Assembly (NCBI RefSeq): GCF_013410345.1
Contig: NZ_JACCFJ010000001.1
Span: forward strand, 4,816,501 to 4,880,500
Source of the DNA: Saccharopolyspora hordei
GTDB lineage: Bacteria; Actinomycetota; Actinomycetes; Mycobacteriales; Pseudonocardiaceae
Reading direction: 5' to 3'
DNA length: 64,000 bases
The notes below the pieces were generated by a model. It saw only the letters and a list, made by a program, of their open reading frames with translations. It had not been told where the DNA came from and did no database searches. A program made the translations under genes and the position numbers. Shown here piece by piece: positions 24,784-37,595 of the stretch (position 1 is the stretch's first letter; every line of letters begins with the position of its first letter).

Positions 24784-25404
24784 TCAGGGAAGGTCGAACT
24801 CCGGTGGTCCTTCCCCGGAACGTTCGAGCTCCTCGCGGACCACGCGGAACGCCAGGCCCTCCGCATAGCCCTTGCGGGCCAGCATCCCGACCAGGCGGCG
24901 CATCTTCGCCGTGTGGTCCACCGACCCCATCGTCCGGAGCTTGCGCTGCACCAGCTCCCGGGCCCGCTCGGCTTCCGCATCGGGATCCACAGTGGACAGG
25001 GCCGCTTCCACCAGGTGCTCGTCGATGCCCTTGCGGCGCAGCTCGTACCCCAGCGCCTTGCGGCCCAGCCCCTGCGCCCGCTGCCGGGAGTTCACCCACT
25101 CCTCGGCGAAGGAGGCGTCGTCCACCAGTCCGGCGTCGACGAACTTCTGCAGCACGCGGTCGGCGACGTCCTCGTCGATCTCCTTGCGCAGCAAGGCCTG
25201 CCGCAGCTCCGCGCGGCTGCGCGCACGCGCCGCCAGGAGGCGGTACACGGTGTCGCGCGCCCGCTGCTCCGGGGTGTCGGCCTTCCGCCGCGTCGACTCC
25301 GGTACCTCGCCCCGAGCCGCCTGGTCCCGCGGCCCGTCCTCCGGGTGCTCACCGTCGGGGAAGCGGTTCCGCGCACCGCTCCCCCGACTCCTGCCGTCGT
25401 TCAT
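24784..25404 (-). CDS. recX: RecA-inhibitory protein RecX
   Basis: Modulates RecA filaments (206 aa). A hydrophilic N-terminal tail (about 1-45) precedes the three-helix repeats (ARDTVYRLLAARARSRAELR, DRVLQKFVDAGLVDDASFAE, VNSRQRAQGLGRKALGYELR). It follows recA by about 20 bp on the same strand, the standard actinobacterial recA-recX operon, so it is induced from the recA SOS promoter. The start may be ATG 25404 or an in-frame GTG at 25410. The 247-bp gap to the HAD gene shows nothing recognisable. Confidence 0.94.
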   Translation of the reverse strand: MNDGRSRGSGARNRFPDGEHPEDGPRDQAARGEVPESTRRKADTPEQRARDTVYRLLAARARSRAELRQALLRKEIDEDVADRVLQKFVDAGLVDDASFAEEWVNSRQRAQGLGRKALGYELRRKGIDEHLVEAALSTVDPDAEAERARELVQRKLRTMGSVDHTAKMRRLVGMLARKGYAEGLAFRVVREELERSGEGPPEFDLP

Positions 25405-25423
25405 GCTCACCAGCGCGGGACGA

Positions 25424-26470
<1,047 letters not shown>

Positions 26471-26588: not shown

Positions 26589-26604
26589 GCGAACGGATGT
26601 TCGA
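26589..26604. promoter_or_regulatory. LexA (SOS) box of recA
   Basis: GCGAACGGATGTTCGA is the LexA palindrome with one mismatch in the outer left base (G for T). It lies in the 262-bp gap between recA and the divergent DUF4383 gene, 119 bp upstream of the recA ATG and 129 bp upstream of the DUF4383 start, so it could act on either. Confidence 0.85.
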
Positions 26605-34904: not shown

Positions 34905-35438
34905 CTACAGCTCCAGGAAGGGCTTCGGGTAGGTGAACTCGCCCCGCATCGCCGGGTCGTAGGAGCTCAGGGTGCGGACCTGCAGGTGCGAGGCCCACTC
35001 GGGGACCTGCGGGGTGATCCCGTGCTCCACGGCGGGCTCGAACCCGAACCTCGGGTAGTACTCCCGGTGTCCGAGCAGGACGACAGCCGGTTCGCCGAGC
35101 GCGTCCGCCGCGCCGAGGACCGCGTGCACCAGCGCTGACCCGACGCCGCGCCGCTGGAGCTCCGGCAGCACCCCGAGCGGTCCCAGCGCCAGCGCCGGGA
35201 CGTCGGCGATGTGGCCGCGGGTGCACACGACGTGCCCGACGACCCTCCCGTCCTGCTCGGCGACCAGCGACAGCGCCGGCAGCCAGGCGTCGTCGGCGCG
35301 GAGCGCGTCGACGAGCCCGGCCTCCACCGGGACCACGTCCGGTCGGTCGGCATCCGCGAAGGCGGCCGCGTGCACCGCGTGGATGGCGGAGACGTCGGCG
35401 GGAGTTTCACGTCGGACCAGCACCCGCCCACGCTGCAC
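34905..35438 (-). CDS. GNAT-family N-acetyltransferase
   Basis: About 177 residues. The acetyl-CoA loop is VLPELQRRGVGSALVHAVLG (R-R-G-V-G) and the C-terminal strand is YYPRFGFEPA. The pattern suits the GNAT group with HxxYYxRFGF near the end (YhbS-like). The N-terminal start is uncertain: GTG 35438 gives VQRGRVLVRRETPAD, and a TTG at 35459 would add seven residues. The substrate is unknown. It is the last gene on its strand before the mycothiol-enzyme/HEPN operon. Confidence 0.88.
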   Translation of the reverse strand: MQRGRVLVRRETPADVSAIHAVHAAAFADADRPDVVPVEAGLVDALRADDAWLPALSLVAEQDGRVVGHVVCTRGHIADVPALALGPLGVLPELQRRGVGSALVHAVLGAADALGEPAVVLLGHREYYPRFGFEPAVEHGITPQVPEWASHLQVRTLSSYDPAMRGEFTYPKPFLEL

Positions 35439-35477
35439 GCCGCCGAGCTCGCCGTGCAACCGGATTTCCGGACTCGG

Positions 35478-36248
35478 TCAGCGGGTGGCGAGCTGCAGCA
35501 GCCCCCACAGCTGGGCGACCGCGTCCGGGTCGCCGCTGATCTCCACCGCCCGGTTCGGCAGCCGACCCCACGTCCACAGGTAGACCGCGGCGGGGTCTCC
35601 GCTGACCACCGCGTCCGGCGTGGTGGTTGCGACGTCGTCCGAACTGACCACGGCGGTGCTGCGCTCGTCCGCGGTCACCAGCCAGTTGCGCCCGGCCACG
35701 TGCACCCCGACCGAGCAGGCGTGGCTCGCGGTGATGCCGAGGGCGTGCAGCCGGTGGGCGAACCACACCCGCAGCACCTCGTCGACGCCGTCGACGGCCA
35801 CGTCGGTCTCGATCGCGGTGCGCTCCACCCCCGCCGCCGTCTGCACGTCCACCCGGTGCACCGTGGTGGCGTGCAGCATCCGGCGCACCCAGAAGCGCAC
35901 CTCGTGCTGCTCCGGCCACCAGGTCGGGCAGGGGTCGTGCGGTGGCCGGGACCCGAACTCCGCGAGCAGCGCGGCCAACCGGACCGCGAACCGGTTGGTC
36001 ACCTCGCGCAGCTCGGGACGCTCCGGCAGCTCCCACGGCCGCTCCACCTCGGAGGACCCCAGCCAGGACAACGCGTCCTCGCACAGGTCGCCCAGGTGCC
36101 GCACGGTCTCCCCCAGCGTCCGCCCGGAGGCGCTCCACACCGGCTGGTCCGGGTGCGCGTCGTGCGTCGCCGCGATGAGCAGCTGCGCCTCGATGCCGAG
36201 CAGGTCCAGCATCCGCCCGTGGTCCACGCCCACTCCCGTGCCGTTCAC
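35478..36248 (-). CDS. Maleylpyruvate isomerase-family mycothiol-dependent enzyme
   Basis: A 256-residue DinB-like four-helix protein with an MDMPI-type N-terminal domain (ATHDAHPDQPVWSASGRTL, GETVRHLGDLCEDALSWLGS) and the conserved TTVHRVDVQ metal-ligand region. The C-terminal SCP-like domain contains VSGDPAAVYLWTWGRL. Enzymes of this family use mycothiol as thiol cofactor in isomerase or transferase reactions. It starts at GTG 36248 overlapping the HEPN gene stop (GTGA), so the pair is translationally coupled and shares the SOS-type promoter region upstream of the HEPN gene. Confidence 0.88.
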   Translation of the reverse strand: MNGTGVGVDHGRMLDLLGIEAQLLIAATHDAHPDQPVWSASGRTLGETVRHLGDLCEDALSWLGSSEVERPWELPERPELREVTNRFAVRLAALLAEFGSRPPHDPCPTWWPEQHEVRFWVRRMLHATTVHRVDVQTAAGVERTAIETDVAVDGVDEVLRVWFAHRLHALGITASHACSVGVHVAGRNWLVTADERSTAVVSSDDVATTTPDAVVSGDPAAVYLWTWGRLPNRAVEISGDPDAVAQLWGLLQLATR

Positions 36249-36691
36249 CGCGCCACCCCCAGCAAGCTGCGTCCGACGATGTCCAGGAACTCCCGGCTGC
36301 GCGCCAGCAGGGCGTCGGCGTCGAGCCAGGTGATGGTCGGCGCCCCGGCCTCGGCGGCCGCGCGCCGGTCCGACCGCGCCGCGAAGTAGGCCGCCCACTC
36401 CCGCAGTTCCGGCGCGGCGTCCGTCACCAAGCGCCACACGCTGGCCGGTCGCTGCTCCCCGCACTGCCGGGAGCGGGCCACCACCACGGCCGTGGCCGCG
36501 CGCAGCGCCGCCACGTGAGCGGCCACGTACCGCTCGGCCGGGCGGTCCGCCTGCTCCGCGTCGTGCAGGCAGGTCCGCGCGTGGAGCAGCAGCGACAGCG
36601 AGCCCGCCGGGGTCTCCGCCTCAGGGGTCGGGCCCTGGTCCTCCACGGCGCTCCGCGGAGCGGGTATCGCGAGATCGGTGGAAAAAGACAT
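36245..36691 (-). CDS. SAV_6107-family HEPN domain protein
   Basis: A 148-residue protein with an N-terminal variable region (1-30) and an all-helical HEPN domain. The Rx4-6H motif of HEPN ribonucleases is intact as Arg54-Tyr-Val-Ala-Ala-His59. The domain continues with AALRAATAVVVARSRQ and the helix VWRLVTDAAPELREWAAYFA. ATG 36691 follows GGAGAG. Two adjoining LexA boxes lie 123 bp upstream at 36814-36844, and a mycothiol-dependent enzyme gene overlaps its stop. This suggests a DNA-damage-inducible operon. Whether it cuts RNA, and its partner, are unknown; the active motif is seen, activity is inferred. Confidence 0.85.
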   Translation of the reverse strand: MSFSTDLAIPAPRSAVEDQGPTPEAETPAGSLSLLLHARTCLHDAEQADRPAERYVAAHVAALRAATAVVVARSRQCGEQRPASVWRLVTDAAPELREWAAYFAARSDRRAAAEAGAPTITWLDADALLARSREFLDIVGRSLLGVAR

Positions 36692-37025
36692 CGGCGCTCT
36701 CCTCTGCACGACGAAGTCGTCCGCGCCCACCAGGGCTCCCCTCCGCCGCCTCCGGTCCGGGGCGGCCGGTCCGGCGGCGGAGCGCTTCCCCCACTCCGCC
36801 GCCGGACCACTGTTCGAACCTCAGTTCGTCGAACTCGCGTTCGAACACAGCCAGACTAGCGCCCCCGACGGCCCACCTCAAGCACTGCGCGATAGCTCAC
36901 CTGTTCGAGGGATGATCAGCGGCGATGATCACCCGGAGGGAGGCGCCGGACGCCGGGTGACCGCCTCGCCACGCGCGGGACACGCCAGGAAGGACGCCGC
37001 GCCGCACACCGGTTAGTGTTCGGCC
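36692..37025. other. Divergent regulatory region, HEPN operon / GNAT
   Basis: A 334-bp gap. It holds the tandem LexA boxes (36814-36844), GC-rich inverted repeats around 36741-36806 in the HEPN leader, and a lone GTTCGA half-site at about 36903-36908. A possible 86-residue frame on the minus strand (36621-36881) reads through the operators and HEPN start and looks spurious. Confidence 0.6.
36814..36844. promoter_or_regulatory. Two abutting LexA (SOS) boxes
   Basis: TCGAACTCGCGTTCGA (36829-36844) is a perfect match to the actinobacterial LexA consensus TCGAAC-N4-GTTCGA. TCGAACCTCAGTTCGT (36814-36829) matches except its last base. They share base 36829, so their centres are 15 bp apart. They lie 123-153 bp upstream of the HEPN gene ATG and about 182-212 bp upstream of the divergent GNAT gene. 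Confidence 0.9.
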
Positions 37026-37595
37026 GTGACCGCCGCTCCTTCACCCCGCCGCGAACGGATCGCCGAGCTGACCGCCGACCAGCTCCGGGCCCGCCTGCCC
37101 GAAGCCCTGCAGATCTACGTGACCGCGATGGGATACCCGCCCTCCACCGTCCAGCAGCGCGCCCCGATGTGGTCGGCGCACATGCTGCGCGCGGGGTGGC
37201 GCTGCGTCGGCGCGTTCACCGACCAGGACGAGCTCATCGGCATCGGCTACGGCTACCTCGGCGCCCCCGGTCAGTGGTGGCACGAGCAGGTCCGCCGCGG
37301 CCTGCTGAGCAGCGGGGCCGAGATTGGCGACTGGCTGGACGACTACTTCGAGCTGACCGAGCTGCACGTGCACCCGTCCGGCCAGGGTGCCGGGCTCGGC
37401 GAGGAGATCCTGCGCCGCCTGCTGGCCGGCGCCCCGGGCACCAAGGTCCTGCTGTCCACCCCGGAGGGACCGACGCGCGCCTGGCGGCTGTACCGCCGGG
37501 TCGGCTTCACCGACGTGCTGCGCAACTACCGGTTCGCCGGCGACCCGCGCCCGTTCGCGGTGCTCGGCCGCCCGCTGCCGCTGGAGCCCCGCTAG
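37026..37595 (+). CDS. GNAT-family N-acetyltransferase
   Basis: A 189-residue acetyltransferase with the acetyl-CoA binding loop LHVHPSGQGAGLGEEIL (Q-G-A-G-L-G) and a C-terminal WRLYRRVGFTDV strand. It resembles GNATs annotated as acting on small amines or peptides, but the substrate is not evident. The start is GTG 37026. It is divergent from the HEPN operon and could be affected by the same LexA boxes. Confidence 0.9.
   Translation: MTAAPSPRRERIAELTADQLRARLPEALQIYVTAMGYPPSTVQQRAPMWSAHMLRAGWRCVGAFTDQDELIGIGYGYLGAPGQWWHEQVRRGLLSSGAEIGDWLDDYFELTELHVHPSGQGAGLGEEILRRLLAGAPGTKVLLSTPEGPTRAWRLYRRVGFTDVLRNYRFAGDPRPFAVLGRPLPLEPR

Follow-up and report, generated by a model that had tools for sequence, protein, structure and literature searches.

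A HEPN_SAV_6107 gene behind abutting LexA boxes in Saccharopolyspora hordei: a probable SOS gene with a structured leader and a possible role in translesion synthesis

Why does a small gene for a HEPN-domain protein lie directly behind two abutting LexA boxes? The question is raised by a locus in Saccharopolyspora hordei, situated in a stretch of 64,000 nucleotides (contig NZ_JACCFJ010000001.1, positions 4,816,501 to 4,880,500) that was analysed as a whole and is called the window here. The gene belongs to the HEPN_SAV_6107 family (PF18726) and is followed by a gene of the MDMPI family. The explanation that we favour, with slightly more than even confidence, is that the locus is the LexA-repressed promoter of an actinomycete SOS gene, that the HEPN product is probably a non-catalytic accessory of translesion synthesis, and that the mRNA begins with a structured leader. 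LexA on the two abutting operators would cover the transcription start, DNA damage would lead RecA to trigger the self-cleavage of LexA, and the operon would then be transcribed, with the folded leader most likely exerting additional control after transcription. The likeliest role of the small helical product would be to assist SOS translesion synthesis as an adaptor or regulator.

The two adjoining boxes described in the earlier note are present upstream of the HEPN gene, with one shared base and a centre spacing of 15 bp (Table 1), and its remark that perfect boxes are rare is borne out by the host chromosome of 5.78 Mb, which holds only three perfect sites. Within the window, nine sites with at most two mismatches were counted vs 1.76 expected, and nine or more were reached in 0 of 100 shuffles; across the genome, 43 sites had at most one mismatch vs 16 for a reversed control pattern. 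One of the three perfect boxes is that of the HEPN locus, another lies upstream of imuA'-imuB, and the third stands between two frames resembling transaldolase (tal) and glucose-6-phosphate isomerase (pgi); this last box occupies genome positions 2555324-2555339 (L002 1501-1516). A one-mismatch box was also found at genome position 1,368,255, between the imuB and dnaE2 matches, and the frame before ImuB is presumably ImuA', a name given for its position. Inside the window, lexA itself (937-1033 and 1030-1842, with LexA DNA-binding and S24 domains) has three one-mismatch boxes at its start, two of which abut, so that the HEPN promoter is not alone in having such a pair. The window also holds recA (25424-26470) and recX (24784-25632), both on the minus strand, with a one-mismatch box at 26589-26604 upstream of recA. 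At the HEPN locus, the predicted +1 falls at the edge of the main box, and the pattern TTG-N19-21-TAnnnT occurs directly upstream of the box at 34 of the 37 loci of the window's family, at a control rate of 0.3%. A high-scoring LexA box is thereby placed at the predicted HEPN promoter. The promoter-like hexamers, the conserved leader hairpin, the distal LexA-like site and the polymerase neighbours in relatives are additions to what the earlier note described.

Conservation was followed across 109 PF18726 loci, comprising the window's own, all 55 other matches from a first search, 13 of 36 from a second and 40 of 247 from a third, the last 40 being chosen to spread over families; seven weak matches outside the class (G319, G163, G245, G130, G237, G399 and G103; 22.9-30.7 bits) were left out, and these showed no box with at most one mismatch. 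PF18726 was also matched in 38 of 41 relatives of G052. Within 900 nt upstream of the HEPN gene, a perfect box was found at 88 of the 109 loci and a box with at most one mismatch at 98, while 886,727 control positions in other parts of these loci gave one perfect box and seven with at most one mismatch. Counted by family, 41 of 43 have a box with at most one mismatch in this range, the exceptions being f18 and f119; in the latter, G781 has a one-mismatch box at -1281 and G539 has none. A second set, overlapping the first, took 80 loci from titled genomes; of the 75 with at least 900 nt of upstream sequence, 53 had a perfect box and 70 a box with at most one mismatch. The absence of boxes upstream of orthologous operons was the first outcome that the earlier note had named as fatal to its proposal, and the boxes were kept. 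The adjoining second box (at most two mismatches, 15 bp offset) has a narrower range and accompanies 13 of the 88 perfect boxes, all within the window's genus. The distal pattern TCGAAC-N4-GANCTA was present upstream at 21 of the 109 loci, in 19 of them as the exact 16-mer TCGAACAGGTGAGCTA, and at none of the positions in a 1.86 Mb control; among Corynebacterium HEPN loci, whose LexA boxes differ a good deal, 7 of 30 have a similar, asymmetric TMGAAC-N4-GANCTA element instead. The strong SOS control proposed earlier is well supported by the boxes and their conservation, and we hold LexA control of the HEPN gene to be nearly certain, LexA binding and induction being what we infer from these sites.

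At 28 of 99 loci, though not in the window, the LexA box is preceded by TGTC-N12-TAnnnT, which resembles the PafBC/RecA-NDp promoter motif; in 22 of these loci it stops 8-10 nt short of the box. Dual control by PafBC and LexA is possible at these loci. RecA-NDp is named in PMC6789036, the part of the text used here giving no written-out motif.

A further indication of damage control comes from Corynebacterium glutamicum, where cg2381 is reported as a member of the LexA regulon and reached an M-value of 3.86 after ciprofloxacin, equal to that of recA (PMC5055667). PF18726 was detected in 41 of 41 Corynebacterium genomes and, among 14 control genomes, in C. glutamicum alone. The order divergent GNAT-HEPN-DUF3040 was seen at all 30 loci examined (30 of 41 matches), and 20 of them have a MraZ motif at a distance of 1.15-1.74 kb after the HEPN match, the loci themselves ending about 1.8 kb downstream of it. 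Because the Corynebacterium order is HEPN-DUF3040-mraZ, mraZ is cg2378 in C. glutamicum (PMC5055667) and this species has PF18726, cg2381 is, by synteny, very probably the HEPN_SAV_6107 orthologue.

The suggestion of a role in translesion synthesis comes from the neighbouring genes. Outside the window's family, DnaE2, a second DnaE type, DinB or ImuB is encoded downstream on the same strand at 46 of 72 loci (30 families), and DUF6504 lies upstream of the HEPN gene at 27 of the 72. The gene orders seen include box-DUF6504-HEPN-DnaE-methyltransferase-DinB and box-HEPN-(ImuA')-ImuB-DnaE2. In a tree of 35 DnaE proteins, the DUF6504-linked type formed its own clade, apart from the ImuB-linked DnaE2 that include the dnaE2 product of S. 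hordei. Because many families have the HEPN gene in the same gene row as DnaE2, ImuB or DinB, HEPN_SAV_6107 may well be a translesion-synthesis accessory, a role for which we consider the case evenly balanced. An ImuA'-like frame was recognized in three of seven ImuB-bearing loci examined (G050, G611 and G484), the simple frame finder leaving the other four unresolved; a Pfam scan gave no match for the three ImuA' candidates and IMS alone for one ImuB. A comparison of DUF6504 with the C-terminal domain of ImuB by hhalign gave a probability of 0.3% and so did not confirm DUF6504 as a stand-alone ImuB-C, and the DUF6504b protein of the G025 type had no Pfam match. At two loci (L087 of G047 and L086 of G060), the gene matched directly 3' of the HEPN gene, behind a LexA box, is one that we take to be ligA, for NAD-dependent DNA ligase. 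Searches of the open PubMed Central (PMC) literature returned nothing related for HEPN domain and translesion, no HEPN among the matches listed for SOS response, LexA, mutasome or DnaE2, no DUF6504, nothing joining HEPN, LexA and mycothiol, and the survey PMC3710099 alone for SAV_6107 with HEPN.

Between the boxes and the start codon, the leader of the window folds with z = -5.3, and its first hairpin recurs in 51 of 99 leaders vs a single occurrence in 1.8 Mb of the same loci. Two alignments were built, A1 from 24 of the 36 leaders in the window's family that have the loop GGGGAAG and A2 from 22 of 23 others (G345 left out). In A1, 96.4% of the stem cells of hairpin 1 pair and 12 of 15 pairs show two-sided changes; in A2, with sequences from other families, the values are 86.1% and 13 of 15. 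GGGGAAG served as the search key for the rows of both alignments, and the constancy of this loop is partly a matter of construction, while that of the stems is not. When the partners were slid by 1-3 columns, pairing fell from 88.0% to 40.7-54.8% in A1 and from 85.4% to 43.5-54.2% in A2. The whole-structure measures were reached by 0 of 500 shuffles in either alignment, a control that related rows inflate, with the structures drawn from the same sequences as were counted. For hairpin 2, 77.8% (A1) and 76.4% (A2) of the cells are paired, with two-sided changes in three of six and six of six pairs, respectively. Its loop in relatives, CUUCCCC, is complementary to the GGGGAAG of hairpin 1, so that the two loops could pair; 77.8% (A1) and 91.3% (A2) of the loop-loop cells do so on paper, without covariation support, as the loops hardly vary.

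Family models were searched as well. The first, R1, gave one match in the S. hordei genome (36750-36813, 58.1 bits, the sequence itself being part of the model), the next best scoring 24.8 bits (E 1.6). Among 61 relatives, 34 gave a single match, in each case a short way ahead of the HEPN match, namely 34 of 37 from the window's family and 0 of 24 others; 23 of these 34 sequences are in the model and 11 are not. The second, R2, was found under strict filters in at least 17 of 394 genomes of the class, 17 of 17 by the HEPN gene on the same strand, with 12 of the 17 in the model and five not. We treat the two hairpin sets as one element because they share loop, place and gene. Against Rfam 15, the leader of the window gave three matches far below the gathering score (E 0.048 or worse) and the loci of 14 relatives gave none. 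The leader RNA is very likely real, and the covarying hairpin is newly seen here and absent from Rfam 15; its likeliest role would be in post-transcriptional timing. An intrinsic terminator was considered and rejected, as no U run follows the hairpin in the window, and a pairing of the hairpin 2 loop with the Shine-Dalgarno sequence, checked by eye, gave nothing convincing. A further hairpin, with the loop UCGACCC, follows the LexA box in 21 of 99 leaders (G057, G458, G505 and G652 among them) vs eight occurrences in 1.8 Mb, the invariance of its loop being partly by construction because it was part of the search pattern; this hairpin is absent from the window and was not seen in its family.

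Several observations weigh against our explanation. A polymerase neighbour was found at 0 of the 37 loci of the window's own family, and 26 of the 72 loci outside it are likewise without one. The translesion role is proposed from gene context. The Streptomyces-like genus f18 g42 keeps the HEPN gene with neither a polymerase nor a box of at most one mismatch at 7 of 7 loci, and G056 and G292 (f8 g35) have two-mismatch boxes only and no polymerase. At least nine genomes of genus g23, which we take for mycobacteria, have no HEPN gene among the matches listed. Concerning the regulation, many of the boxes in Corynebacterium have degenerated (of 30 loci, one has a perfect box, 10 have one with at most one mismatch and 20 one with at most two), cg2381 is identified as the HEPN gene by synteny and not by its own sequence, and the selected LexA targets of Streptomyces venezuelae, as given in Table 1 of PMC9380542, name no HEPN. 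As for the leader, hairpin 2 has decayed in the window, and the two models miss each other's families, R1 finding 0 of 24 outside its own and R2 being absent from the S. hordei genome.

A bolder form of the explanation can be drawn from the same evidence. Here, HEPN_SAV_6107 would be a core subunit or assembly factor of SOS mutasomes of both a DnaE2A-like and a DnaE2B-like kind, and the leader would represent a new class of kissing-hairpin RNA (GGGGAAG/CUUCCCC) that gates or delays mutasome translation after LexA is gone. We put this forward tentatively and think it rather unlikely. Our favoured explanation, for its part, would assign a class of function to a protein family detected in 247 of the 394 genomes sampled from the class, enlarge by one member the error-prone repair systems that underlie damage-induced mutation of actinomycetes, and bring a new structured RNA into an SOS operon.

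The leader also invites another reading, in which the HEPN protein is a non-catalytic binder of RNA, regulating its operon through the hairpins of its own leader or acting on structured RNAs more broadly. The model searches found the conserved leader RNA at HEPN genes only, and HEPN domains without the catalytic motif probably bind RNA according to the 2013 HEPN survey, as far as its text was available (PMC3710099). The protein would offer conserved charged and aromatic residues for such a purpose, R54, R64, W86, W99, R110 and D126 each being present in 105 to 109 of 109 sequences. With 48 of the 99 leaders lacking hairpin 1 at the threshold used, we regard this reading as unlikely.

The earlier note had instead taken the HEPN protein for a plausible RNA-cutting effector on account of an intact Rx4H motif at Arg54-His59. 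The protein agrees with the PF18726 profile and the helical HEPN fold, and both residues are present, whereas their position in helix 2 is not the known HEPN active site. In the AF2 model, R54 and H59 are placed at the start of helix 2 (51-76), while the survey puts the true motif at the end of helix 3 and counts the SAV_6107 group among those without a conserved Rx4-6H (PMC3710099). In columns 107-121, where helix 3 ends, no conserved His was found among the 109 sequences, the conserved residues there being R110 and G116. Of the 109, 88 have His at residue 59, 17 have Tyr, three Gln and one Ser, while R54 and R110 are each kept in 106. The helix 2 position, the variability of residue 59 and the survey listing together rule out R54/H59 as the known catalytic site, and the proposed RNA cutting is weakly supported at best; the label HEPN is, by itself, no ground for reading RNase.

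A DNA-damage-induced RNase or growth-arrest toxin, possibly restrained by the MDMPI-family partner, would still be conceivable with an alternative site. The fold matches include the toxin relatives HepT and AbiV besides the best one, AF0298 (2hsb), while a search of PDB sequences with the HEPN profile returned one weak chain (E 0.036). Judged from the order of the helices alone, R54/H59 and R110 may share one end of the bundle and form such a site, and the available text of the survey describes alternative His sites for AF0298-like and AbiV HEPN proteins and reports a genome-scale screen in which even motif-less HEPN proteins proved to be effective toxins (PMC3710099). The missing helix 3 His, the substitutions at residue 59 and the survey listing speak against a toxin, as does the lack of a nucleotidyltransferase antitoxin among the five neighbouring window genes scanned, relatives not having been scanned for one. 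The distribution is also unlike that of mobile toxins: most genomes, across many families, have a single copy, and there are polymerase neighbours. We consider a toxin quite improbable, and an accessory of SOS translesion synthesis remains the function that we prefer.

The genes of the locus are listed in Table 1. The coupling of the HEPN and MDMPI-family genes that the earlier note described is real in the window's family, with the partner gene at 36 of 37 loci; we read HEPN_SAV_6107 as having been uncoupled from the polymerase genes in this family and re-paired with an MDMPI-fold protein. The partner scores 29.6 bits for MDMPI_N (cut-off 24.2) and 37.8 bits for MDMPI_C (cut-off 29.5), and 30.5 bits for TIGR03083, under the cut-off of 50. 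The Glu of HExxxH is presumably a metal ligand in the C. glutamicum MDMPI, where we take the ligands to be His, Glu and His. The corresponding motif in the window reads HATTVH, with Ala in place of this Glu; among 35 aligned proteins, the window's included, the position holds Ala in 23, Glu in 11 and Ser in one, and within the window's genus Ala in 21 and Ser in one of 22. The protein may have lost its metal site, and because the presumed ligand is gone, the redox or thiol function previously suggested for the partner becomes doubtful. The GNAT frame that follows is possibly a third gene of the operon; its cluster, F7, is present at 11 of the 56 loci compared. It is highly improbable that the divergent GNAT gene is what the boxes mainly control and that their closeness to the HEPN gene is accidental. 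The intergenic region is shared and the distal LexA-like site is situated in the direction of the GNAT gene, but at loci where no divergent GNAT match was seen, the box still precedes HEPN or a DUF6504-HEPN row. Both the promoter hexamers, with their fixed spacing, and the RNA hairpin are found on the side of the HEPN gene and in its sense.

Table 1. Features of the HEPN locus in window coordinates.
Feature	Position	Strand	Details
Main operator, perfect LexA box TCGAAC-N4-GTTCGA, TCGAACTCGCGTTCGA	36829-36844		0 mismatches
Second LexA box TCGAACCTCAGTTCGT	36814-36829		1 mismatch; base 36829 common to both boxes
Weak LexA-like site overlapping second box	36802-36817		2 mismatches
Distal LexA-like site TCGAACAGGTGAGCTA	36893-36908	-	3 mismatches to consensus; 64 bp upstream of main box
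Predicted promoter	36853-36881	-	TTGAGG (36876-36881), 17 nt, TAGTCT (36853-36858)
Leader hairpin 1	36770-36806	-	15 bp as modelled (15 bp or more); loop GGGGAAG 36785-36791
Place of leader hairpin 2	36743-36769	-	Loop CCGCCCC here vs CUUCCCC in relatives
Shine-Dalgarno AGAGGAG	36699-36705	-	For HEPN ATG (36691)
HEPN_SAV_6107 gene	36245-36691	-	148 aa; PF18726 95.5 bits vs cut-off 27.2
MDMPI-family gene	35478-36248	-	256 aa; GTG start overlaps HEPN stop by 4 bp (GTGA)
GNAT acetyltransferase frame	34905-35459	-	TTG start, 18 bp after MDMPI-family gene
Divergent GNAT acetyltransferase	37026-37595	+	Intergenic region common with HEPN gene

For better orientation, the locus can be set beside systems already described. 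The partner resembles the MDMPI family in having both of its domains over the cut-off and differs from it in the TIGR03083 score and in the Ala/Ser replacement in its genus. Among SOS mRNAs with structured leaders, E. coli tisB is similar in combining a LexA box with a folded leader, although fold and genes are different there. The nearest relatives in gene order are the ImuA'-ImuB-DnaE2 and DnaE2B-PolY/ImuB-C modules of PMC12926913, which the HEPN gene resembles by standing in a LexA-boxed row with DnaE2, ImuB or DinB, and the two DnaE clades found here resemble the DnaE2A/DnaE2B division made there. In the window's family, however, the HEPN gene stands apart from imuA'-imuB-dnaE2, and the text of this actinobacterial mutasome account, as far as it was available, makes no mention of HEPN (PMC12926913). 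The C. glutamicum gene cg2381, a probable orthologue by synteny, is induced by DNA damage and is treated in the available text as a conserved hypothetical, without family, operon or RNA context (PMC5055667). Finally, the HEPN-M (SAV_6107) group of the 2013 survey has the same Pfam family and fold, and where the survey table, in the portion used, lists the group without genomic context (PMC3710099), probable SOS control and a linkage to polymerase genes are added here.

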